NCBI GenBank assembly: GCA_947481595.1
Contig: CANKHC010000006.1
Span: 1-37,475 of the forward strand
Direction of reading: 5' to 3'
Source: Fidelibacterota bacterium
Lineage (GTDB): Bacteria; Pseudomonadota; Alphaproteobacteria; Rhodospirillales; Rhodospirillaceae
DNA: 37,475 bases
Shown: positions 5,647 through 32,716 of the stretch, piece after piece
How the letters are laid out: every line of letters begins with the position of its first letter
Position numbering within the stretch: position 1 is the stretch's first letter
The notes under the pieces: generated by a model
Database searches by the model: none
Seen by the model: only the letters and a program-made list of their open reading frames with translations
What the model was told of the DNA's origin: nothing
Program-made: the position numbers and the translations under genes

Positions 5647-6726
5647 ATGCAGGTGAAGATCGTTAGGAACGTATTGCTCGTGGGCAGCGCGCTGATGGCG
5701 GCCGGTCCCGCTCTGGCAGAGTCGCGCAGCTATGTCGTCAGCAATTTCACGCTCGCGTCCTACAGCACGGACGGCGACTGCTCGAAGGGCATCAATCCTT
5801 CGGTCGATGCGCAGAACGATTTGAACCTGCTGGCCTTGGGTTACACCAAGGAGGAAGTGGAAAAGTTCAACAACGCCGGACAGGGCGGCGGCGCCGGCCA
5901 AATCCTCATCAATCGCGCCAAGGTTGGCGGCAAAAACGTCAGTTCCTGGGTCAACCCGGCGAGCGCGCCCGATCCGAAGTTGAACGCCGTCGACGGCAAG
6001 TATGCCTTCGGCTTCAACCTCGACGGCCGCGGCGCTGACTCGCCCAACGGCTTCGAAGAACCGTTCACCAAGGAAAAAGGCATCAACAACCAGCTCTTCC
6101 GCGCCATGGGCTGCTTCACGGTCTTCCGCGGCGACGAGAAGGTGAAGCCGACCGCCTGGTTCTCTGCCTGGGACATCATTCGCCCGGGCATGCCGGCCTG
6201 GCTGATGACGTTTGAAGGTGCGGATCTCAGCAAAGACGGCGATATCAAAATCGTCTTCGACCGCGCGCTCGAGCACGCCGAACGTGATGCGAAGTCCGAA
6301 GTGCTGCGCGACATGACTTTCCGCCTCGACCCGAACCCCCGTGCGCACATCGAACTCAAGGGCCGGATCAAGGACGGCAAGATCGAGCTCGTCGAACACG
6401 GCGAAGTGCGCGCGGTCTTCGGCGAAGAAATGCTCTTCCCCGAACTTCTGCTGAAGAACACGCATTTGCGTCTCACCATGCAGAAGGACGGTTCGCTGGC
6501 GGGTTACATCGGCGGCTATCAGCCGTGGAAAGATACCTACAGCAGCAGCTGGTACGCCAACGGCGGCTCCGACCAGGTGGGCCTCTATTACCTGCTGCGC
6601 GCGGCAGCTGACGCCAACCCCGATCCCAAGACCGGCCTCAACCGCGACATCTCGACGGCCTATACCCTCGAAGCGGTCCCGGCGTTCACCGTTCCGCTGA
6701 ACAAAAACAAAATCGCGAACCGCTAG
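5647..6726 (+). CDS. Secreted protein of unknown function (signal peptide), partner of the downstream repeat protein
   Basis: MQVKIVRNVLLVGSALMAAGPALAES signal peptide; 359 aa; 11 bp before the next gene. Confidence 0.75.
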   Translation: MQVKIVRNVLLVGSALMAAGPALAESRSYVVSNFTLASYSTDGDCSKGINPSVDAQNDLNLLALGYTKEEVEKFNNAGQGGGAGQILINRAKVGGKNVSSWVNPASAPDPKLNAVDGKYAFGFNLDGRGADSPNGFEEPFTKEKGINNQLFRAMGCFTVFRGDEKVKPTAWFSAWDIIRPGMPAWLMTFEGADLSKDGDIKIVFDRALEHAERDAKSEVLRDMTFRLDPNPRAHIELKGRIKDGKIELVEHGEVRAVFGEEMLFPELLLKNTHLRLTMQKDGSLAGYIGGYQPWKDTYSSSWYANGGSDQVGLYYLLRAAADANPDPKTGLNRDISTAYTLEAVPAFTVPLNKNKIANR

Positions 6727-6737
6727 GAAAAACACCC

Positions 6738-8090
6738 ATGAAGATCACATTGAACGCGGCCGTCATTGCGATCGCCTGCGCCGTCGCCGCCAGCTCCGCC
6801 TCTGCTAAGGATATGCCGATCACCAAAGAAGCCATGCCGGCCGGCATCACGCTGCAACCCCTCGGCCGCGCGCAAGGCTACGGCGCGCAGCGCTGGCGCC
6901 AGATCAGCCGCGCGGAAATCGTCTATGCCAGCGACAAAGGCCTGACCACCTACACCTCCGACGCCGACCAGCCGGGCAAGTCCAATTGCGTCGCCGAATG
7001 CGCGCAGACCTGGATTCCGCTGTCACCCGTTGCCAAAGCCAAGGGCGTTCCGGGCTGGACGGTCATCAGCCGCGCCGACGGCACCAAGCAATGGGCCCAT
7101 GAAGGCAAGCCGCTTTACACGCACAAGGACGACAAAGAAGGCGGCGATGTCATGGGCCAGGGTGATGACCCCAATGGCCGGCAGTTTTTCGGCGGCGAGG
7201 GCAAGGCTCTCAAGGCGAAGCTCCCCGACGGCTGGCGTATCCACAAGTCTCACACCGGCGGCGAGTCGACGGGCGGCGTCGCCATGCCGGTTGGCTTTGC
7301 CGTTCACGAAGTCGGCGATGCCAATGGCGTGGTCATCGTCGACATGCACAACCCCGAAGTCGAGCGCACGCTCTATTACTACACCGGCGATATCGCGAAA
7401 GATAAGCGCGCCTGCGGCACGCAGTCGGCGGTGTGCGCCGGTTTCGAACCGGTGCAGGCGCCTGTCCTCGCCATGGCGATCGGTGAGTGGACCATCGTTG
7501 AGCGCAAGGACGGCATCCGCCAGTGGGCGTTCCGCAACAAGCCGCTCTACACCTACGAAGCCGACCGCATCACCGGCGACGTGCACGGCGTGAACGTCGA
7601 CAAGCGCTGGCAGCTCGCCGCAGTCGATACCTACTTCATGCCGAAGAATGTCATCTGGCGCGATGACTTCATCCAGGGCCGCATGCTTGCCACCGACAAA
7701 GGTATGACGCTCTACCGCCGCAACATCCTGTCCTTCAACCCGGCCTCGGTGCAGCTGGCACACGACCGTCCGTATCGTCCGCGCATCGGCCGCCACATCC
7801 GCGACGTGGCCTGCGACGCGGTGTGTCAGAAGGCCTACAAGCCTTACCTGGCACCGAAGGACGCGCAGCCCCAGGGCTACTTCGGCATCCACACGCTGCC
7901 CGATGGCAGCAAGCAGTGGACCTACAAGGACTTCGCGCTCTACACCTCCGTCGACGACAAAGCCCCGGGCGATTCCCTCGGCGATGTGGTCTACAGCCTC
8001 CTGATGTCCGATGAACCGAACGTCGACAACGACGTCGGCTTCCCCGGCCTTTACAAGGCCGGCTTCTATTGGATGGTCGCGACTTTCTAA
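6738..8090 (+). CDS. Secreted protein with about three COG4315/Lipoprotein_15 (PF03640-type) repeats
   Basis: Signal peptide; repeats GLTTYTSD...CVAECAQTWIPL...W.VISR.DGTKQWAHEGKPLYTHKDDKEGGDVMG; LYYYTGD...W.IVERKDGIRQWAFRNKPLYTYEADRITGDVHG; GMTLYRR...CDAVCQKAYKPYLA...LPDGSKQWTYKDFALYTSVDDKAPGDSLG. Confidence 0.8.
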   Translation: MKITLNAAVIAIACAVAASSASAKDMPITKEAMPAGITLQPLGRAQGYGAQRWRQISRAEIVYASDKGLTTYTSDADQPGKSNCVAECAQTWIPLSPVAKAKGVPGWTVISRADGTKQWAHEGKPLYTHKDDKEGGDVMGQGDDPNGRQFFGGEGKALKAKLPDGWRIHKSHTGGESTGGVAMPVGFAVHEVGDANGVVIVDMHNPEVERTLYYYTGDIAKDKRACGTQSAVCAGFEPVQAPVLAMAIGEWTIVERKDGIRQWAFRNKPLYTYEADRITGDVHGVNVDKRWQLAAVDTYFMPKNVIWRDDFIQGRMLATDKGMTLYRRNILSFNPASVQLAHDRPYRPRIGRHIRDVACDAVCQKAYKPYLAPKDAQPQGYFGIHTLPDGSKQWTYKDFALYTSVDDKAPGDSLGDVVYSLLMSDEPNVDNDVGFPGLYKAGFYWMVATF

Positions 8091-11585: not shown

Positions 11586-12464
11586 ATGAATATGCAAATC
11601 AACCCGGTGTCGGTGATCGACGACGACACCGCCAAAATCATCATCGAGCACCGCTTGCAGGTGCCCGGTGTGACGTTCGAGCTGCACCAAGTCGAACGCG
11701 TCACGCCGCGCAAGATTTTCGTCAACACCGAGAATCATGCCGTCTCGCTCGCACTCTCGCCGCTGCCGAAAGACTGGTACTGGCAGTTTCTTCCTGACAC
11801 GCAGGCGGTTCCGGCCGGCACCTTGAACTTTCGCCCTGCCGGTCAGAAGCTGCGTGTCTTCCCGCGCCGTGGGCGCCACCGCTGGCTGTCGCTCAACATC
11901 GACCCGGCGCACTTCAAACAGATCAGCGGCCACAGCGACGACTGCGTGCTCAAAGCCTGCCCCAACATCAAGGGCACGCCGATGGACGCGGCATTGTTCC
12001 GCGTCGCGCGCGAGATGACCTCGCCCGGAATGGACACGCCGGCCCTGGTGGAAGCCATCAGCCGCACGTTTCTGATCGACCTTGCGCGCACGGTGGTTGG
12101 ACCGCGGCGTTCCCAGCTCGAACAGCAAGACGGTCTGTCGCAGCAGCAGTTCAACCGCATCAACGAATTCATCGAAAGCGCTGATTGCTACGCACCGTCG
12201 ATTTCGGACATCTCCGAACTCCTCGGCATCAGCCGGCGCCACCTGACACGCCTGTTCCGCATGTCCTCCGGCCAGACCATCCACGCGCACATCGCCGAGA
12301 TCCGGCTGCGCAAAGCGGTCGATCTCTTGGCTCGCACAGAGTTGTCGGTGAAAGAAATCTCGCACAAGCTGGGCTTCTCTTCGCCCAGCGGCTTGGCAGC
12401 TACGTTCCGCGCCGCCACCGGGCAATCGCCCAGCCAATTCCGCCACCAGTACCGCGCGCCTTAA
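11586..12464 (+). CDS. AraC-family transcriptional regulator
   Basis: C-terminal double HTH: SISDISELLGISRRHLTRLFRMSSGQTIHAHIAEIRLRKAVDLLARTELSVKEISHKLGFSSPSGLAATFRAATGQSPSQFRHQYR. Confidence 0.92.
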   Translation: MNMQINPVSVIDDDTAKIIIEHRLQVPGVTFELHQVERVTPRKIFVNTENHAVSLALSPLPKDWYWQFLPDTQAVPAGTLNFRPAGQKLRVFPRRGRHRWLSLNIDPAHFKQISGHSDDCVLKACPNIKGTPMDAALFRVAREMTSPGMDTPALVEAISRTFLIDLARTVVGPRRSQLEQQDGLSQQQFNRINEFIESADCYAPSISDISELLGISRRHLTRLFRMSSGQTIHAHIAEIRLRKAVDLLARTELSVKEISHKLGFSSPSGLAATFRAATGQSPSQFRHQYRAP

Positions 12465-12658: not shown

Positions 12659-12696
12659 GCTGGCCGGCAGCACTCCGCTGTCGGCCAGCATTTTTT
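12659..12696 (+). terminator. Rho-independent-terminator-like hairpin GCTGGCCGGCAG-cactccg-CTGTCGGCCAGC-ATTTTTT
   Basis: 12-position stem with one G-T pair, 7-nt loop, followed by A then six T; located between AraC and cytochrome genes. Confidence 0.7.
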
Positions 12697-13006: not shown

Positions 13007-13480
13007 ATGAAAAAGACACTTGCTGCTCTTGCCCTGTTGATCTCGGCGTCGGCCGGCATCGCGGTGGCATCCGAGCTGACCATCCAGGACAAAGCCGCGG
13101 TTGATGCCTGGACCAACCTGACCTACGGCCAGGCGAAAAGCCCCAACGATCCGATGGGCGACACCGCTCTCCTGCAGTCCTTGACCAAGGACGAACTCCG
13201 GGGCGCCGCACAGTTCAACATTCACTGCAACGCCTGCCATGGTCCTGAGGCGAGCATCGCCGTCACCTATGGTCCGCGCATCACGCAGGATAACCTCAAG
13301 GACCGCGAAGATTTCATCCGCATGCAGATCACCGACGGTTCGCCCAACATGCCGGCCTTCAAGTACGCGCTGAAGCCGCGCGACGTTGATCAAATCATGG
13401 CTTACCTGCGCAAGGTTCCGCCGCTCTGCTTCGACTGCAAGGTCGGCGACTTCCGCCGCGCCATTCCCGTTTCCCAATAA
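13007..13480 (+). CDS. Periplasmic mono-heme cytochrome c
   Basis: Signal peptide MKKTLAALALLISASAGIAVAS; AAQFNIHCNACHGPEA (CXXCH); NMPAFKYALKPRDVDQIMAYL distal Met region; extra C-terminal CFDC. Confidence 0.88.
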   Translation: MKKTLAALALLISASAGIAVASELTIQDKAAVDAWTNLTYGQAKSPNDPMGDTALLQSLTKDELRGAAQFNIHCNACHGPEASIAVTYGPRITQDNLKDREDFIRMQITDGSPNMPAFKYALKPRDVDQIMAYLRKVPPLCFDCKVGDFRRAIPVSQ

Positions 13481-13503
13481 CGCCAATCCGAGGGAGAAGT
13501 ACG

Positions 13504-15351
13504 ATGACAATGTTCAAAACATACGCGCTCAGCACGTCGATCCTCGCCGGTTTGGCGGTGGGTGCACTGGCGACACCGGCTTTCGCCGACACCATCCTGA
13601 CCGGCAAGATCACCAATGCCACCAACCAGCCGCTGGAAGGCGTCCCGGTCTCGTTCCGGCAGCTCGGCTCGAGCTACACCACCAGCGTCTATACCGACGC
13701 CGCCGGTGAATACGTTTTCCCGGCGATGCCCGTCGGCAAGTACAAGATGTGGGCCCAGGCCGTGGGCTTCCAGAACCACATCGCCGACGTCGACGTGAAA
13801 GGCAACGTCCTCAAGCAGGACATCAAGCTACCCGCGCGCGCCGACTTCGAAGTGCAGATGCGCGGCGATGAGTGGCTCCATTCGATGCCGCGCGAGACCG
13901 ACGAAGACAAGCGCATGGCGGTGGTCTTCCGCATGGCCTGCATGGGCTGTCATCCGCAGTCGGTCACGCTCAAAGACAAGTTCGACCAGAGGGGCTGGGA
14001 GAACATCATCACGGTGATGAGCCGCATCAACACCGCGGGTTACCGCAGCAATTACGGCGACATGGACGACACGTTGCCAAACCACAAGATGCTCTACTTC
14101 AAGAAGCGCTTGGCGGCCTGGCTGGCCAAGGGCCGCGGCCCGACCACCACAGCGGCCGATTTCAAGCCCTACGCCCGCCCGCGTCCGAAGGGTGAGGAGA
14201 CCATGCTGCTCATCCGCGAGTACGACACCAACCAGCCGGGCACCGGCCTGCCGTTGTTCGTCGACGGCAGCCTGTGGTCCGACAGCGCGCCCTCCAAGCT
14301 CTATATCAAGAACCATCACGCCATCGACGGCGCGCTGGATGCCAACGGCGACGTCTACTTCTCCGACGACGTCAACCTGAACCCGTACCGCACCGTCGGT
14401 AAGATCGACTGGAAGACCGGCAAGACCACCAACATCAAGATTGTGCGCCGCGACGGTTCGGGTCTGGCCGCCAACAACCACGACATCCTCACCGACAAGG
14501 AAGGCTTCGTGTGGTTCGGCACCGAAGGCAAGATGTACAAGTACGATCCCAAGACCGCGAAGCTCGACTCCTACCTGCCGCCGCGCGGCGTCAGCGTCGG
14601 CAGCATGCTGAACGAGGATCCCCTCGGCGGCATCTGGAGCCCGCGCTCACGCTTCGACTCCAAGACCGGCGAAGTGAAGGGTTTCAACCTGCCGATCTCG
14701 CAGAACCCCGAAGCGTATCCGGCCACCTACGGCATCGCGGCCGACCAGACCGGCGATGGCTGGGCGATCATGCAGTCGCTTGGCCTCTTGGTGCATATGG
14801 AGACCAAGACCGGCAAGACCGAGATCGTCAAGTTCCCCAAGGACGACAACCCCGACTACGCGCTGTTCACCGGCGACGACCGCGTCGTCTACGAGCAGGG
14901 CGGCGGCTCGAACTTCAACGGCCATGGCAAACCGGACACCTATACCGTCCGTAAGCCGGGTGCCGGCCCGGGCCCGACCGACTCGGTGTGGGGACCGGCC
15001 TGGTACAATGACGCCCTGGTGCGTGTGAACATCGATACGCGCCAAGTTTCGATCGTCAAAGCGCCGTGGAAGTATGCCGACCCCTACCACACGCAGGTGG
15101 ATAAAGACGGCAACGTGTTCACCATCTTCACCGATGGTGACTTCGTCGGCCGCTACAATCCGAAAACCAATACCTGGACGCGCTACGACATGCCGACCGT
15201 CGGCACCGAAGCGCACGGCCTCAACCTCTATACGGTCAACGGCAAGACGGAAGTCACCGTGCCCTATTGGGCTGCCGGCAAGACCGCGAAGGTCCAGTTC
15301 CGTACGCAAGCCGAGATCGATGCCCTCAAGGCCGCTGCCAAGAAGGGCTAA
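13504..15351 (+). CDS. Secreted fusion protein: carboxypeptidase regulatory-like domain + CXXCH heme motif + Vgb/NHL-like beta-propeller
   Basis: Signal peptide; ILTGKITNATNQPLEGVPVSFRQLGS..TTSVYTDAAGEYVFPAMPVGKYKMWAQAVGF; RMACMGCHPQSV; repeated D.G.VWF / YDPKT / IDWKTGKT propeller segments. Confidence 0.8.
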   Translation: MTMFKTYALSTSILAGLAVGALATPAFADTILTGKITNATNQPLEGVPVSFRQLGSSYTTSVYTDAAGEYVFPAMPVGKYKMWAQAVGFQNHIADVDVKGNVLKQDIKLPARADFEVQMRGDEWLHSMPRETDEDKRMAVVFRMACMGCHPQSVTLKDKFDQRGWENIITVMSRINTAGYRSNYGDMDDTLPNHKMLYFKKRLAAWLAKGRGPTTTAADFKPYARPRPKGEETMLLIREYDTNQPGTGLPLFVDGSLWSDSAPSKLYIKNHHAIDGALDANGDVYFSDDVNLNPYRTVGKIDWKTGKTTNIKIVRRDGSGLAANNHDILTDKEGFVWFGTEGKMYKYDPKTAKLDSYLPPRGVSVGSMLNEDPLGGIWSPRSRFDSKTGEVKGFNLPISQNPEAYPATYGIAADQTGDGWAIMQSLGLLVHMETKTGKTEIVKFPKDDNPDYALFTGDDRVVYEQGGGSNFNGHGKPDTYTVRKPGAGPGPTDSVWGPAWYNDALVRVNIDTRQVSIVKAPWKYADPYHTQVDKDGNVFTIFTDGDFVGRYNPKTNTWTRYDMPTVGTEAHGLNLYTVNGKTEVTVPYWAAGKTAKVQFRTQAEIDALKAAAKKG

Positions 15352-15391
15352 GACCAGGAAGGCTTAGGACGCGTCGCAACACAATGGAGTC

Positions 15392-15418
15392 CCGCCGCGC
15401 GCGATAAACGCGCGGCGG
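15392..15418 (+). terminator. Hairpin CCGCCGCGCG-cgataaa-CGCGCGGCGG followed by CTTTT
   Basis: 10-bp perfect stem, after the 15351 stop and before the 15437 start. Confidence 0.65.
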
Positions 15419-15436
15419 CTTTTCCGGGAGGAAACA

Positions 15437-16291
15437 ATGAAATCGAGAAAATACTTGAGCATGGCTGTGGCACTGATCGCCGGCCTGCTGATGGCCGCCC
15501 CAATGATGTCTAACGCGGCATTCGCTGCGGCAGCCAAAATCAATGAAGCCACAACGCCATTCGACTCCGTCGGGGCGAAAATCAATCTCCTGTCGTTCAA
15601 ATCCGGCTCGGGCAAGCAGCCCGCGGTCCTGCTCATCCATGATAAGGACGGCGTGACCGAGGACATGAAGGCCATCGCGCGCACCATCTCCGGTGCGGGC
15701 TTTGCGGTGTTCATGCCCGACTACCCGTCGCGCCCCGATCAGAAAAAAGTGCAAGGTGCGATTGACCAGATGGCCGGCATGTCGACCAAGGTGAAGCGCC
15801 TGAATGTCGCGGTGACGCTGGCCGATACGCTGGCTGCATTTGATGTTGTGGCGAAGGATCCGTCGGTTGATGCCGCCAAGATCTCCGTCATGGGCATCGG
15901 CTGGGGCGGTTGGCGTGCCTATCAGCTGGCCGCGGCCAAGCCCGAACTCTACAAGGCCGTGGTCGTGTACGGCGTGGCACCTGATGACGGCTCGCTCGCC
16001 CTCGTAAAGGCGCCCGTCCTGGGGATCTATGCGGCTGGCGATTTTTACATCACCGCAACCCACCTGACCACGAAGCAGGAACTGGGCAACAAGTTCAGCT
16101 ACGAAATCTACAAGGACACCTACCCCGGCTTCTTCGGTGGCAGTGAAGCTGGTGGGGGCCCTGCTCTGATGGGCGAAGGCGAAATCGACACCGCGGCCGC
16201 GGCCAAGGAAGCCGGGCTGTCGAAGGTCGTCGATAAAGGACCGGAGTCGCGCAAGTTGGCCATGGCCAGAGCGCTTGCATTCCTGAAGTAA
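15437..16291 (+). CDS. Secreted dienelactone-hydrolase-family (alpha/beta-hydrolase fold) protein, apparently lacking the catalytic nucleophile and His
   Basis: Signal peptide; QPAVLLIHDKDGVTEDMKAIARTISGAGFAVFMPDY, ISVMGIGWGGWRAYQLA (expected GxCxGG or GxSxGG), PVLGIYAAGDFYI. Confidence 0.75.
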   Translation: MKSRKYLSMAVALIAGLLMAAPMMSNAAFAAAAKINEATTPFDSVGAKINLLSFKSGSGKQPAVLLIHDKDGVTEDMKAIARTISGAGFAVFMPDYPSRPDQKKVQGAIDQMAGMSTKVKRLNVAVTLADTLAAFDVVAKDPSVDAAKISVMGIGWGGWRAYQLAAAKPELYKAVVVYGVAPDDGSLALVKAPVLGIYAAGDFYITATHLTTKQELGNKFSYEIYKDTYPGFFGGSEAGGGPALMGEGEIDTAAAAKEAGLSKVVDKGPESRKLAMARALAFLK

Positions 16292-16314
16292 TTTCGTCCG
16301 ATTGACGAGGATGA

Positions 16315-16344
16315 ACCGGCCGACGGGGCAACTCGCCGGCCGGT
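16315..16344 (+). terminator. Hairpin ACCGGCCG...CGGCCGGT followed by TTTGTTTT
   Basis: 8-bp outer stem plus inner CG/CG, T-rich tail, 24 bp after the DLH-like stop. Confidence 0.7.
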
Positions 16345-16424
16345 TTTGTTTTGGCAGCAAGGGACTCAGACCCTGTGATAATATTGGCGAAAGGAACCGC
16401 GGAGCATCACAGGAGGGATTCAAT

Positions 16425-16853
16425 ATGGTCTACCTCACGCGGCGCAAGGCACTGACGGCTGGACTTACGCTCGCCTGCGCGCCCACGCTTATTCGCACCG
16501 CTTCGGCCAACGGCGACGGCTTCTTCGGCCTCGAGCAGCTTGGCCCCATCGAATTCATGTACTACGGCACCGTCCGCGACACCGACGACGGCTACCTGAC
16601 CGATGCTCAAGTCACCATGACGGTCAGCAACCCGGACCTGATCTACACCGAGGTCTCCGACGTCATCGGCCACTACCGCATGCCGGATGTCGGCCGCTAT
16701 CTGGTGGATAACAACCACAAGGTCGATCCCTCCACGTTCAAACTCTTTTGCACGATGGAGGGCTACAAGCAGGTGCGCAAACTCGACCGCCGTCCAGGGC
16801 GCCTGACCAAAGGCGCCTTCGAGGTCAATTTCACGATGCAAAAGATCAAGTAG
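16425..16853 (+). CDS. Small Tat-secreted protein with carboxypeptidase regulatory-like/transthyretin-like fold
   Basis: LTRRKALTAGLTLACAPTLIRTASA twin-Arg signal; YYGTVRDTDDGYLTDAQVTMTVSN..IYTEVSDVIGHYRMPDVG; AGGAGGG upstream of ATG at 16425. Confidence 0.65.
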   Translation: MVYLTRRKALTAGLTLACAPTLIRTASANGDGFFGLEQLGPIEFMYYGTVRDTDDGYLTDAQVTMTVSNPDLIYTEVSDVIGHYRMPDVGRYLVDNNHKVDPSTFKLFCTMEGYKQVRKLDRRPGRLTKGAFEVNFTMQKIK

Positions 16854-16900
16854 GCAAAAACTAAAGTGAGTATGTGATTCAAATTTGGGGAGGGCTGCCT

Positions 16901-19054
16901 GTGTCGAAAAAAATCATCGCAGCGCTTTTTGCGTCGTCGTATCTCGCGACCGCAACGTTCTACGTAAGTCCGACTCAGGCCGCCGAGGCGATCCCGGTTG
17001 TCGCCGACAGCCTCAGTGGCGTGGTCACCAGCAGCAAGGGCCCCGAAGCCGGCGTCTGGGTCGTCGCCGAGACCTACGATTTCCCCTCGCGCCTGATCAA
17101 GATCGTCGTCACCGACGATCAGGGCCGCTACGTCCTGCCGCAACTCCCCAAAGCTAAATACGAAGTCTTCGTGCGCGGCTACGGCTTGGTGGATTCACCG
17201 CGCGTCGAAGCCGAACCCGGTAAGCGCCTTGACCTCAAGGCCGTCATCGCGCCGGACGGCAAGGCCGCTGCCCAGTACTATCCCGCCGAATACTGGTTCG
17301 CCATGATGAGGGTGCCGAAGGGTCCGCTCACCGTCGACCAGGCCTTCGGCAGCATCAAGAGCTGCGCCATCTGTCACCAGCTCGGCCACAAATACACCCG
17401 CGAATTCACCGAAGCCTTCCTCAAGCTTGGGCCCTTCAAGACTCCGCACGAAGCCTGGGACCGCCGCGTGCAGTCTGGTCCGCTGGGTCAGTCCATGAGC
17501 GGCATGTACAACCGCCTGGGTGAACAGCGCGCCATGTTCGGCGACTGGACGCAGCGCATCCAGAATGGCGAATTCCCCAAAGAGGCGCCGCCGCGTCCAA
17601 AAGGTATCGAGCGCAACATCGTCGTGACCGAATGGGAATGGGGCGAGCCTGACACTTATTCGCACGACGCTATCGCCACCGATCAGCGCAACCCCACCCT
17701 CAACGCCAACGGCAAGATCTGGGGCCCGACGCAATACGCCGATCAGCTGCTGTGGCTCGATCCGGTGAAGAACGAATCCGGCTTCGTGAAGGTACCCTCA
17801 TCTGCCAAACCCGTGGGCTCCGATCCCTCCCGCGACGGTTCCATGTTCAAGACCTCGCCGACCTTCGGCGACACCACCATGTGGGTCAGCTCGGCCAATC
17901 CGCGCAGCGTGATCATGGATCCGAAGATGCGCATCTGGTACGCCGTGCGTTCGCACGACGACAAGATCGCCGATTTCTGCAAGACCGGTGCGAACAACAA
18001 ATTCGCCCAGTACTTCCCCATCGACAAGCCGCAGAACGATTACGCGCTCGGCGTCAAGCAGGCCGGCGTCTACGATCCGGCCACGGGCAAGTTCGATGTC
18101 GTCGAAACCTGCACCACCACCGACCACAACCAGTTCGCCGACAACAAGGCGATGCCCGGCAACAACATCTTCTGGGGCCAAACCGGCATTTTGGGTTGGG
18201 TCAGCGTCGATGCCTGGGACAAGACCCACGATCCCGCGCAGTCAACCGGTTGGCTGCCGATGGTGATCGACACCAACGGCGACGGCAAGATTACCAAAGG
18301 CTGGACTGAGCCCAACCAGCCGGTCGATCCGAAGAAGGATCACCGCATCACCGCCGGCTGCTATTCGGTCGCCTCCAGTCCCATCGACGGTGCGGGCTGG
18401 TGCTCAGGCATCGGCGGATCGCGCCGCTTGGTGCGCGTGTTCATCGGTTCCAATCCGCCCGAAACATCGATTTCGGAAATGTTTGAGCCGCCACAGACCG
18501 ACCCGGAGGGCCTGCCCTACCAATCGGTCGGCGGTGTCGACGTCGATAGCAAAGGCGTGGTGTGGCAGAACTGGCGCCAGACCGATCAGATCACCGCTTT
18601 TGACCGCACCAAGTGCAAGATCAAGAACGGCCCTCAAACTGCCGACGGCCGCCACTGCCCCGAAGGCTGGACCACTTACCGTCTGCAGGGCCCAAGCCCC
18701 GAAGGCACCAAGCTGCGCGCCAACGTGCTCTATCTGATGGAAGTCGACCGCATGAACGGCGGCGGCTTCGGCGTCGACGCCGTGCTGCAGCAGCCCAACA
18801 ACTCCGACGCCGTGCTCGTGCTGATGCCCGAGCAGGCCGGCAAACGCGAGTGGGTCACGGCGCGCGTGCCCTATCCCATGGGCCAGTTGTGGCGGCGCAT
18901 CAGCTGGCGCATCGACGATCCCAACGGCGGCTGGAAAGGCCGCGGCCTGTGGACCTCCGATGGCTTCGTCGCCCCCTGGCACCTCGAGAATGGCCTGGGC
19001 GAGAAGCCGAAGGTCGTGAAAATCCAGGTCCGCCCGGATCCGCTGGCGAACTAA
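16901..19054 (+). CDS. Secreted fusion protein: carboxypeptidase regulatory-like domain + CXXCH heme motif + beta-propeller (second paralogue)
   Basis: GTG start at 16901 gives signal VSKKIIAALFASSYLATATFYVSPTQA; DSLSGVVTSSKGPEAGVWVVAET..IVVTDDQGRYVLPQLPKAKYEVFVRGYGL; IKSCAICHQLGHK; propeller-like repeats follow. Confidence 0.78.
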   Translation: MSKKIIAALFASSYLATATFYVSPTQAAEAIPVVADSLSGVVTSSKGPEAGVWVVAETYDFPSRLIKIVVTDDQGRYVLPQLPKAKYEVFVRGYGLVDSPRVEAEPGKRLDLKAVIAPDGKAAAQYYPAEYWFAMMRVPKGPLTVDQAFGSIKSCAICHQLGHKYTREFTEAFLKLGPFKTPHEAWDRRVQSGPLGQSMSGMYNRLGEQRAMFGDWTQRIQNGEFPKEAPPRPKGIERNIVVTEWEWGEPDTYSHDAIATDQRNPTLNANGKIWGPTQYADQLLWLDPVKNESGFVKVPSSAKPVGSDPSRDGSMFKTSPTFGDTTMWVSSANPRSVIMDPKMRIWYAVRSHDDKIADFCKTGANNKFAQYFPIDKPQNDYALGVKQAGVYDPATGKFDVVETCTTTDHNQFADNKAMPGNNIFWGQTGILGWVSVDAWDKTHDPAQSTGWLPMVIDTNGDGKITKGWTEPNQPVDPKKDHRITAGCYSVASSPIDGAGWCSGIGGSRRLVRVFIGSNPPETSISEMFEPPQTDPEGLPYQSVGGVDVDSKGVVWQNWRQTDQITAFDRTKCKIKNGPQTADGRHCPEGWTTYRLQGPSPEGTKLRANVLYLMEVDRMNGGGFGVDAVLQQPNNSDAVLVLMPEQAGKREWVTARVPYPMGQLWRRISWRIDDPNGGWKGRGLWTSDGFVAPWHLENGLGEKPKVVKIQVRPDPLAN

Positions 19055-19079
19055 GACTCAAAGCGAGAGGAATATCCGG

Positions 19080-19104
19080 CGGCGGCACTTTCAAAGTGCC
19101 GCCG
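19080..19104. terminator. Hairpin CGGCGGCACTTT-c-AAAGTGCCGCCG between convergent genes
   Basis: 12-bp perfect inverted repeat with a 1-nt centre; TTCGGCTTTT downstream; lies between stops at 19054 (+) and 19113 (-). Confidence 0.65.
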
Positions 19105-19112
19105 TTCGGCTT

Positions 19113-19919
19113 TTAAACCCGCACGCCGACGGTGACGTGACCGCGATAGCCGCTGCGCGGGTCGCCGGTCATCCGTGGCGTCATGGCCGCCAGTTGCGCG
19201 ATGGTGTTGTCGGCAAACAGCCCGTCTTGCATCGGCTGAGGCATGTCCTGAAAGAACGCCACGCTGCGCGCATAGCCTTGCGCCTTCTCGTAAACCTGCG
19301 CACAGGTCTCACCCGGCATCACCAGTTGCGAGGTCAGCACGCTGTTCTTGCCGGTGCCCGCCAGGTCCTGGCTCTTGAACACTTCGATATGCATGTGCGG
19401 GAAGCGCCCGGGATAACAGCCGGGGAAGATGGTGGAGAAGCTCACTTCACCCTTGGCATCGGTCACGCCGACGCCGCGCAAGTAGTTCTCGGTCGGCAAG
19501 TCATACATCGAATAGCGGCCTTCGCGGTCGCAGTGCCAAAGATAGACTGCGTGCCCCGCGAGCGGCGTGCAGCCGCTGGCATTGGCCATCGTCAAGGTGA
19601 GCGACAGCGGCAAGCCTTCGGCACGCGTCTCCGTCGCGCCGAAACTCTTGCGGATATCGCCGCGCACGATGCCGCTTTGCGCCAGCGCATTGGCGGCGCC
19701 GCCCCCCGGCCCGCGGTTGGTGCCGTCGCCGGGGAAGGGGCCTTCAGTCTCGCGCGGGCCCGCCACACAGCCCGCCGTTTGCGTTTCCGCGCCGCCGCTT
19801 TCGCCGCAGCCCGCGAGCACCGCCGCCGCGATCAAGCCGCAAGCACCGCGGCGGTTGATCGTTCTTCGCAACAGCGCGAGATCGGCGCGCAAGCCTTCGT
19901 CATGGCTGTGCTTTTCCAT
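19113..19919 (-). CDS. Intradiol ring-cleavage dioxygenase-like lipoprotein
   Basis: Lipobox VLAGC; YLWHCDREGRYSMYDLPTENYLRGVGVTDAKGEVSFSTIFPGCYPGRFPHMHIEVF preserves the Tyr/Tyr/His/His Fe-ligand pattern of the intradiol family. Confidence 0.85.
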   Translation of the reverse strand: MEKHSHDEGLRADLALLRRTINRRGACGLIAAAVLAGCGESGGAETQTAGCVAGPRETEGPFPGDGTNRGPGGGAANALAQSGIVRGDIRKSFGATETRAEGLPLSLTLTMANASGCTPLAGHAVYLWHCDREGRYSMYDLPTENYLRGVGVTDAKGEVSFSTIFPGCYPGRFPHMHIEVFKSQDLAGTGKNSVLTSQLVMPGETCAQVYEKAQGYARSVAFFQDMPQPMQDGLFADNTIAQLAAMTPRMTGDPRSGYRGHVTVGVRV

Positions 19920-29654: not shown

Positions 29655-29871
29655 ACCGTGCAGCGTTTCGCGGACCACACGCAACGGTAGTGCGAATAAG
29701 GCAATGAACCCGTCGAGTCCTCCACATCTGTGGGGCTCTTCAGATTCCTTAATTCCCCACGCGACCTGTGTCTACATTTCAGCGTAAGTTCGGCGCAGGT
29801 CGTCTCCTGTGCCGGATAACTTGGGGTTTAGGCACAGCATCGGGCGACCCGCCGCCAGAAAGGGGGTTTCC

Positions 29872-31491
29872 ATGCTGCCGACTGAACCGGATCGAATCCG
29901 CCGTGCACTCAATCGCCTGACGTTCGGTGCCCGCGACACCGATGTCTCCAACGCCACCATCATGGGGCTTGGCACGTGGCTCGCCGAACAATTGGCGCCG
30001 CCGCCGGGCGACGACCCGGCGCTCTACAATTACATCTCTCAGCAAGTGATGCCGATCGAATACGCCGCGCCCTCCGTGAGCGACACGCGCGGCATGTGGT
30101 CGGCGGTCAAGGAATCGCGCCCGCTCTATTATCTCTTCACCGATGTGCCGACGTTGTGGTCGGTCGCTGTCGGGGCCAGCACGAGTTACGCGCCGGCCGA
30201 ACGCACGCGCATTCGTCAAGAATTGATCGCCGCCACCTATATCCGCAACGCCCACAGCCAATATCAGCTGCGCGAGGTCATGACCGACTTCTGGCTGAAC
30301 CATTTCAACATCGGCAAGGCCGAGAACGAACTCGCCACCGCCATGCTGCCGATGTTCGACAGCGTTTCCATCCGCCCGCAGGCCTTCGGCAACTTCCGCC
30401 AGCTGCTCGAAGCTACGGCGACCTCGCCTGCGATGCTGATCTATCTCGACAACTGGGTCAGCACCGCCGCCACGCCGAATGAGAACTACGCCCGCGAGAT
30501 CATGGAGCTGCATACGCTGGGGGCCACGTCCTACTTCGGCAAGGATCCTTCCGAGACCGGCTACTCGGTCGGCGTCGATGGCATCGCCAACGGTTATACC
30601 GACCAGGACGTCATCCAGGCTTCACGCGCGCTCTCGGGCTGGACGCTCAAGAACGGCCAGCGCAATGCCGGACGCTTGGTCTCTTCCACCGGCGAGTTCT
30701 TCTACAACCCCGGCCAGCACAACACGACCGCCAGCAAGATCCTCAATGTCGAAGTCGGCTCCTACCGCGGCGACATGGAGCAGGGGCGCCGCTTCCTCGA
30801 CATCATCGCCTATCACCCGAAGACTGGACCGTTCGTTGTCGGCAAGCTGATGCGCCGCTTCTTCGGCGACAACCCGCCGGCGGCGGTGACGGAGCGCGCG
30901 GTCGCGGCCTGGAACGCCAATCTCACCGCGCCCGATCAGATCAAGAAAGTACTCGAGGCCATCGTGTTGGGCGGCGACGAGATTTCCGCCCTGCCGGCCA
31001 CCAAAGTCCGTCGTCCTTATGAGCGCCTGCTCGCCATGGCCCGCACCACCGGGGCCATCATCAACGCCAACGCCACGCTCACGACGCTGCTCGACTCCCT
31101 CAACGACGGACCTTGGGCCTGGCAAGGGCCCAATGGCCGGCCCGACAACGACGATTATTGGCTGGCCACCGGTGCGGTGCTCACCACCTGGAATCTGCTG
31201 CTCGCGCAGCCGGGCGCTGCCTATGTCACAGCTTCGCTCACCAACCAGACGCCGGTTGAGGTGATGAATACCGCCATGGGTGTGGTCGACTACTGGGTCG
31301 GACGCATGGTCGGCCATAGCCTGGACGCAAGCCGCATGACCGCGCTCTACAACGATCAGGGCGGCACATCCGGCGTGCCCGCCGCGCGGCGCAGTTCGAC
31401 CAATACGAACACCGTCGCCACGCGCACCGAGACCGCGCTGCGCCGTCTGGTCGGCATGATCGCCGGCACCGTCGAATTCACCTATCGCTAG
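29872..31491 (+). CDS. DUF1800 family protein
   Basis: RIRRALNRLTFGA, MTDFWLNHFNI, NENYAREIMELHTLG, VIQASRALSGWT, HNTTASKIL, LMRRFFGDNPP. Confidence 0.9.
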   Translation: MLPTEPDRIRRALNRLTFGARDTDVSNATIMGLGTWLAEQLAPPPGDDPALYNYISQQVMPIEYAAPSVSDTRGMWSAVKESRPLYYLFTDVPTLWSVAVGASTSYAPAERTRIRQELIAATYIRNAHSQYQLREVMTDFWLNHFNIGKAENELATAMLPMFDSVSIRPQAFGNFRQLLEATATSPAMLIYLDNWVSTAATPNENYAREIMELHTLGATSYFGKDPSETGYSVGVDGIANGYTDQDVIQASRALSGWTLKNGQRNAGRLVSSTGEFFYNPGQHNTTASKILNVEVGSYRGDMEQGRRFLDIIAYHPKTGPFVVGKLMRRFFGDNPPAAVTERAVAAWNANLTAPDQIKKVLEAIVLGGDEISALPATKVRRPYERLLAMARTTGAIINANATLTTLLDSLNDGPWAWQGPNGRPDNDDYWLATGAVLTTWNLLLAQPGAAYVTASLTNQTPVEVMNTAMGVVDYWVGRMVGHSLDASRMTALYNDQGGTSGVPAARRSSTNTNTVATRTETALRRLVGMIAGTVEFTYR

Positions 31492-31501
31492 GGGGACCCA
31501 C

Positions 31502-32716
31502 ATGAACATCTCTCGCCGCAATCTTCTCGGCAGCACCCTCGCGGGTGCGGGCCTTGCCACACTCGCCCCCGGCCTGCGCGTCGCTTTCGGTGCCGACGCC
31601 GGCGCCACGCGTGACGCACTTGTCGTCATCTTCCAGCGCGGCGCCGCCGACTGGCTGCAGATGTTGGCGCCCTCAGGCGATGCCGACTACATCCGCGCGC
31701 GCCCGAACATCCGCGTCGCCGCCAATGCCGGCATCGGCCTCGGCACCATGAACGGCACCGACATGTATCTCTCGGCCAGCGCGCCCGAGCTCAAGACGCT
31801 CTACGACGCCGGCCAGCTGGCTTTCGTGCACGCCGCCGGCATGCCCACCAACAGCCGCAGCCACTTCGATTGCCAGGACATGATGGAGAAGGCGGCGGTG
31901 GAAACCGAAGGCAAGCAAACCACCGGCTGGCTGACGCGCCATCTCGCGTCCATCGACACCGGCCTGCCGATCCTCGCTACATTATCAGCAAGCCTCAGCG
32001 CCCCGGTTTCGCTCCAGGGCAACAATCAGGTCGTGGCTATCGGCAACTCCACCACCTTCAACGTCAGCGGCGGCGACGCCAACCTCAACCTCTTGCGCAA
32101 CTTGAATGCCGGCGGCTCGAAGTTCGAAGCCAAGGCGCGCGAGACCCTGGACGCGGTCTCCAGCATTCAGTTGGGCCTGCGCACCATCAACACCTCGCAG
32201 TCCAACAACGCCGGATATACGGGGGGCCAGCTCTCCACCGCCCTGCGCTCGCTGGCGCAGATGATCAAAATGAACGTCGGCGTCACCACGGCGACGGTCG
32301 ATTTCGGCGGCTGGGATATGCACAACGGCCTGGTCACTGAGTTCGCAGCCCGGACCCAGGAATTCAGCCGTTCCATCGCTGCCTTCTGGCGCGACATGGC
32401 TGACTACCAAAGCCGCATCACCGTCGTCACCATGACCGAGTTCGGCCGCCGCCTGACCGAGAACGCGAGCCTCGGCACCGACCACGGCTCGGCCTCGGGC
32501 ATGCTGGTGCTGGGCGGCAATGTGAACGGCGGCAAGCTCTACGGCAACTGGCCGGGGCTGGCTGCCAGCGCGCTCACCAGCGGCGACCTGACCGTGACCA
32601 CCGACTACCGCCAGGTCCTCTCGGAAATCCTGGTCAACCGCCATACCGAGAAAAACCTGGCCGCGGTCTTCCCCTCGGTCAAATACGCGCCTCTGGGGAT
32701 TATCAAGACGGCCTAG
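31502..32716 (+). CDS. DUF1501 family protein, Tat signal
   Basis: MNISRRNLLGSTLAGAGL twin-Arg; LVVIFQRGAADWLQMLAP, SRSHFDCQDMMEKA, VVTMTEFGRRLTENASLGTDHGSASGMLVLGGNVNGG. Confidence 0.93.
   Translation: MNISRRNLLGSTLAGAGLATLAPGLRVAFGADAGATRDALVVIFQRGAADWLQMLAPSGDADYIRARPNIRVAANAGIGLGTMNGTDMYLSASAPELKTLYDAGQLAFVHAAGMPTNSRSHFDCQDMMEKAAVETEGKQTTGWLTRHLASIDTGLPILATLSASLSAPVSLQGNNQVVAIGNSTTFNVSGGDANLNLLRNLNAGGSKFEAKARETLDAVSSIQLGLRTINTSQSNNAGYTGGQLSTALRSLAQMIKMNVGVTTATVDFGGWDMHNGLVTEFAARTQEFSRSIAAFWRDMADYQSRITVVTMTEFGRRLTENASLGTDHGSASGMLVLGGNVNGGKLYGNWPGLAASALTSGDLTVTTDYRQVLSEILVNRHTEKNLAAVFPSVKYAPLGIIKTA

Follow-up and report, generated by a model that had tools for sequence, protein, structure and literature searches.

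Quinohemoprotein amine dehydrogenase and cd1 nitrite reductase are, among others, periplasmic enzymes that combine a propeller with a c-type heme and have a small cytochrome as partner. Another propeller protein is virginiamycin B lyase (Vgb), of the streptogramin lyase family, which folds into seven blades. For thiocyanate dehydrogenase from Thioalkalivibrio, a single-heme cytochrome c552 co-purified with the enzyme and is its putative acceptor (PMC9456337). The 'Planctomycete-specific' cytochromes (PSCyt) belong to a system of unknown function, for which a role in carbohydrate metabolism has been suggested (PMC5615132). Here, we describe a locus that encodes two exported heme-propeller proteins, A and B, and we found no literature on a described system of this kind. 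It lies in a 37,475-nt stretch of DNA, the whole of which is called the window below.

Gene content and heme-propeller proteins of the locus

The cluster opens on the forward strand with cytC (13007..13480), which encodes a small exported mono-heme cytochrome c (Pfam Cytochrome_CBB3, E=3.3e-11). On the same strand follow the genes for protein A (13504..15351; 615 aa), an exported DLH-like protein of dienelactone-hydrolase fold (15437..16291; Pfam DLH, E=6e-23), a small Tat-type exported protein with a weak CarboxypepD_reg match, here called CReg (16425..16853), and protein B (16874..19054; 726 aa), which starts at 16874 or, more likely, at 16901. Spacing between these genes is 23, 85, 133 and 47 bp, and such short distances are compatible with a single transcript. 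Convergent to them, on the reverse strand, is the gene of an intradiol ring-cleavage dioxygenase lipoprotein of the extracellular type (19113..19919; Pfam Dioxygenase_C, E=1.5e-9). All genes listed by an earlier note on this DNA are present: GC by codon position was coding-like in every gene named between 13007 and 19919, in agreement with the open reading frames and Pfam. Export signals of the cluster proteins were judged by inspection of the sequence.

Upstream, an AraC-family regulator (11586..12464, forward strand; HTH_18, E=4e-23) ends 542 bp before cytC, and a strong terminator-like hairpin of 13 pairs lies between the two (12659-12689). A promoter scan returned no sigma-70-like site, a result that is uninformative for this genome, and no relatives of AraC were found in the related loci of other genomes. 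The earlier note had called the cluster AraC-associated. The adjacency is real, but nothing beyond it ties the regulator to genes from which it is set apart by 542 bp and the hairpin, and AraC is best treated as a separate unit neighbouring the cluster, not as an established part of it.

Further upstream on the forward strand are the genes of an exported 359-aa protein with no Pfam match (5647..6726; hereafter 5647-type), and of an exported Lipoprotein_15-repeat protein (6738..8090), which has homologs in PSCyt/DUF1552-type operons of relatives. At 29809-32713 of the window, a DUF1800 gene adjoins a DUF1501 gene, the two coming after an amidase gene.

Protein A consists of a signal peptide, a CarboxypepD_reg domain (Pfam, E=3e-13), a heme c region and a Vgb-fold propeller. 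Pfam matched the propeller to Vgb_lyase with E=9e-5 and 21.9 bits, under the family cut-off of 50. Its AlphaFold2 model, of middling confidence (pLDDT 72.9, pTM 0.80), shows a CarboxypepD_reg sandwich together with a propeller and a helical region that bears the CXXCH, and the top PDB match of this predicted structure was Vgb (2z2n; E=2.9e-17, TMt 0.82). The predicted structure of protein B, modelled from a 60-sequence alignment (pLDDT 88.7, pTM 0.89), has the same layout: a signal peptide, CarboxypepD_reg (Pfam, E=2e-5), a heme c region and a beta-propeller. Its top PDB match was again Vgb (E=2.4e-9, TMt 0.77). Neither Pfam nor NCBIfam detected this propeller in any of the 60 B-family members searched, and no PQQ-domain Pfam match was found in A or B. 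Because the two models share both layout and best PDB match, the two CarboxypepD_reg-CXXCH-propeller fusions read earlier from the sequence hold. For protein B, we reject a likeness by chance homology only, given the conserved family and the confident model.

The three proteins previously credited with c-type heme motifs all carry them: CNACH in cytC (13226-13240), CMGCH in A (13939-13953) and CAICH in B (17363-17377). In cytC the motif is followed later by Met115, in SPNMPAF. All 60 aligned B-family sequences have the CXXCH and Met208, and A-like proteins keep CXXCH and Met172 without exception in both alignments made. This combination of CXXCH and distal Met resembles His/Met cytochromes c, and we infer these Met residues as axial ligands and a covalent attachment of heme in A, B and cytC. 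The host genome encodes CcmF; therefore, c-type heme maturation is available.

Conservation of the genes in related genomes

The grouping of cytC, A and CReg was found again in one relative (G010), in which CReg, cytC and A lie together on one strand in an order differing from that of the window. Identities to the window's proteins are 63-68% for cytC, 71% for A and 49% for CReg; a divergent B-family gene adjoins the locus, and the contig ends within A. In a Beijerinckiaceae MAG (L072), A-type, small cytochrome, A-type and B genes are consecutive, and the locus also holds a small CReg-like gene and the gene of a 152-aa membrane protein (TM152). That cytC serves A is best supported by G010:C14, in which an A-like protein carries a fused cytC-like domain, and by what is probably the same fusion in the host's own genome, where the start of a protein with cytochrome c, CarboxypepD_reg and CXXCH is cut by the contig end (G000:C162:4982-5882, L033). 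The recurrence in G010 and the fusion in G010:C14 make it likely that the small cytochrome is an electron shuttle, as had been proposed. Full A orthologs were present in only 2 of 61 genomes.

On sequence grounds, CReg is a distinct, conserved and unnamed family: it gave 24 matches in 14 of the 61 genomes, with a conserved mature start (ANGDxFF) and a twin-Arg leader that is kept in relatives. Nineteen CReg loci of relatives were compared; an A-like propeller gene lay no more than 3 kb away in 5 of these 19 (P~4e-6) and TM152 in 9 (P~1e-14), both far in excess of a chance rate that was set generously. B stood beside CReg in 2 of the 19 loci, and PSCyt/DUF1552 genes within 3 kb likewise in 2, neither of which is above chance. 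Chance suffices to explain how often B adjoins CReg, so that A and B may act separately. At the level of whole genomes, B and CReg share 10 of the 12 genomes that each occupies among 41 related, non-independent genomes (Fisher P=3e-6), and co-occurrence among B, CReg and TM152 gave Fisher P values of 6e-7 to 3e-5 in the same non-independent set. In a class-wide sample of 143 genomes, B occurred in 5, and both CReg and TM152 only in the host's own genome, too rarely for co-occurrence statistics. TM152 (for example at L173:7394-7852), repeatedly found beside CReg, has no Pfam match; its alignment contains invariant His9, His22 and His97 and a near-invariant His144, and it may be a small b-type cytochrome. 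In all these comparisons, the genes of relatives were called by simple ORF rules on fragmented MAG contigs, and E-values and kin-based counts are raw, with phylogeny not factored in.

The DLH-like protein and the dioxygenase were in none of the related loci examined. In the DLH-like protein, Gly is aligned to the Cys nucleophile (GIGWGG versus GFCyGG) and the catalytic His is lost (YPGFFGG versus YPGvnHG). We reject an active hydrolase because these two residues are absent, and the protein is probably a catalytically dead pseudoenzyme. No ortholog of it was found in 60 genomes, and its best match elsewhere had 33% identity. The nearest solved structures to the dioxygenase are the mite extracellular intradiol dioxygenases 5vg2 and 6bdj; with these the 2-Tyr/2-His iron-ligand pattern could be aligned (GRYS, GCYPGRFPHMH), and the site is apparently intact. 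Among the 60 genomes the dioxygenase has a single close relative (48%), in an unrelated context. We regard both proteins as neighbours of the heme-propeller genes and not as demonstrated parts of the cluster. We reject the six-gene system of the earlier note for this absence of conserved linkage. Its core of cytC, A and CReg is kept in G010. The note had named independent scattering of the genes in relatives as a refutation; by this measure two of its six genes fall out, and B adjoins CReg at chance level.

The B family is large, with at least 553 confirmed relatives in a genome scan, the best 80 of which are mostly from Acidobacteriota and Pseudomonadota and also include Gemmatimonadota, Bacteroidota, Myxococcota and MAGs labelled Actinomycetota and Cyanobacteria. 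Pararhodonellum marinum and Rhodocytophaga aerolata are cultured species that carry a B gene. It has no NCBIfam model, and Pfam covers just its N-terminal domain of about 80 residues. In the host's genus copies are often tandem, as in the arrays at G001:C40 (L036-L038), G010:C23 (L044) and G009:C13 (L039), and reach about 25 in one 3.5-Mb genome; B genes are absent from several genomes of the genus. The main subfamily has conserved histidines at H264, H344, H417-H418, H572, H594 and H703. The B of the window has R344, D417 and Q572 in place of three family-common histidines; thus, its chemistry may differ. It falls in a fully supported clade of 11 rows, otherwise mostly from Acidobacteriota, to which R344 and D417 are common, most of the family having His at these positions. 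Clade position and these substitutions suggest horizontal transfer of this B and a divergent active site.

Other B loci have PQQ dehydrogenase, amidohydrolase, PSCyt and DUF1552 genes as neighbours. In Acidobacteriota and Gammaproteobacteria, B stands beside PSCyt, DUF1552, ankyrin and PQQ-dehydrogenase genes. Several gammaproteobacterial loci (L086, L100, L118, L121 and L127) share a conserved set of B-family, glyoxalase-like, PSCyt, DUF1552 and ankyrin genes, with an amidohydrolase in most and a PQQ dehydrogenase in most. In two relatives (G011:C7 and G012:C20), a 5647-like gene shares a same-strand operon with PSCyt, DUF1552, Lipoprotein_15, heme-propeller and CReg genes, and related sets occur in G020. 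The window contains only the 5647-type and Lipoprotein_15 genes of this group, with no PSCyt or DUF1552 gene. The 5647 family has 11 copies in the host genome and 7 to over 30 in most genomes of the genus, many of which exceed 20 or 30, an abundance that makes it possible that the copy near the cluster is there by chance. A Pfam tally of neighbours across the genus gave mixed catabolic genes and no single pathway.

Possible functions of the heme-propeller proteins

We consider it somewhat probable that A and B are periplasmic oxidoreductases built from a Vgb-fold propeller, a heme c and CarboxypepD_reg, that they hand electrons to cytC and that CReg is an accessory. A small substrate would bind at the propeller face of A or B, electrons would pass from a site in the propeller to the fused heme c, and from there through cytC to the respiratory chain. 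CReg would be a conserved protein that assists the A-like propellers. Both the redox catalysis and the direction of electron flow are inferred. A more specific proposal, which we hold only tentatively and think doubtful as a whole, is that A and B form an undescribed class of such oxidoreductases, that the histidines of the main B subfamily are a metal site in the propeller, and that the subclade of the window's B acts on another substrate. The last part follows from the swap of H344 and H417 for Arg and Asp in this mainly acidobacterial-type subclade.

The operons of G011:C7 and G012:C20 and the related G020 sets invite a wider reading, in which a larger exported system of PSCyt (DUF1587/1592/1588/1585), DUF1552, Lipoprotein_15 and 5647-type proteins acts on a polymer or oligomer and heme propellers are its interchangeable modules. 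The acidobacterial and gammaproteobacterial neighbourhoods of B point the same way, as do the two families at 5647-8090 of the window. However, the window has no PSCyt or DUF1552 gene among those two families, the abundance of the 5647 family makes chance nearness likely, and PSCyt/DUF1552 genes are near CReg no more often than chance would place them, which leaves this reading possible and rather unlikely. The heme of A and B could also be structural or sensory, in heme-stabilised binding or lyase proteins of the Vgb kind. Vgb is the closest fold, and both CarboxypepD_reg and the propeller are domains that commonly serve in binding. Nonetheless, the residue of A matched to the catalytic H228 of Vgb is Tyr528, and the position of H270, still His in A, is Arg in its nearest A-like relatives. 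Because the His228/His270 pair is not conserved, neither A nor B is classed as a lyase, and cytochromes that are adjacent or fused point to electron transfer; we judge a non-redox role improbable.

The earlier note had envisaged oxidation of an aromatic or polyphenolic substrate outside the cytoplasm, with the dioxygenase and the DLH-like protein as pathway enzymes under AraC. Proximity of the genes and the apparently intact dioxygenase site agree with it, and in relatives some B or CReg genes have tannase/feruloyl-esterase and DUF6351 tannase-like genes nearby. Against these stand the absence of co-conservation of the dioxygenase and the DLH-like protein with the cluster, the lost DLH active site, the hairpin between AraC and cytC, and the neighbours of other B loci, among which aromatic genes do not dominate. 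The case for such a substrate is weak, and we consider this pathway quite improbable. Should A and B indeed prove to be propeller enzymes coupled to heme, then uncultured bacteria of soil and freshwater have periplasmic redox chemistry of which a notable part is unassigned. In that case cytC and A together offer a compact target for testing it.

Comparison with known systems

The models of A and B both have the seven-bladed fold of Vgb, from which they differ by an extra CarboxypepD_reg domain and a c-type heme. The heme region of A gave a weak match to the alpha subunit of an amine dehydrogenase (1jmx, E=0.0027). The propellers of A and B are nevertheless of another subtype than those of quinohemoprotein amine dehydrogenase and cd1 nitrite reductase, and we saw no sign in them of CTQ, d1 heme or matching subunits. 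The product of 19113-19919 is of the same kind as the mite dioxygenases, and its gene is unlinked to the heme-propeller genes. The histidine metal site proposed for the B family would be comparable in principle to those of N2O reductase or thiocyanate dehydrogenase. Thiocyanate dehydrogenase with cytochrome c552 offers a works-like analogy only to A or B with cytC, and its cytochrome is a separate protein (PMC9456337). The PSCyt/PSD proteins, multi-copy uncharacterised c-type cytochromes with conserved neighbours of unknown function, show a similar kind of organisation (PMC5615132), and B-family genes adjoin PSCyt genes in several phyla. Their domains are different ones, whereas A and B are predicted propellers.
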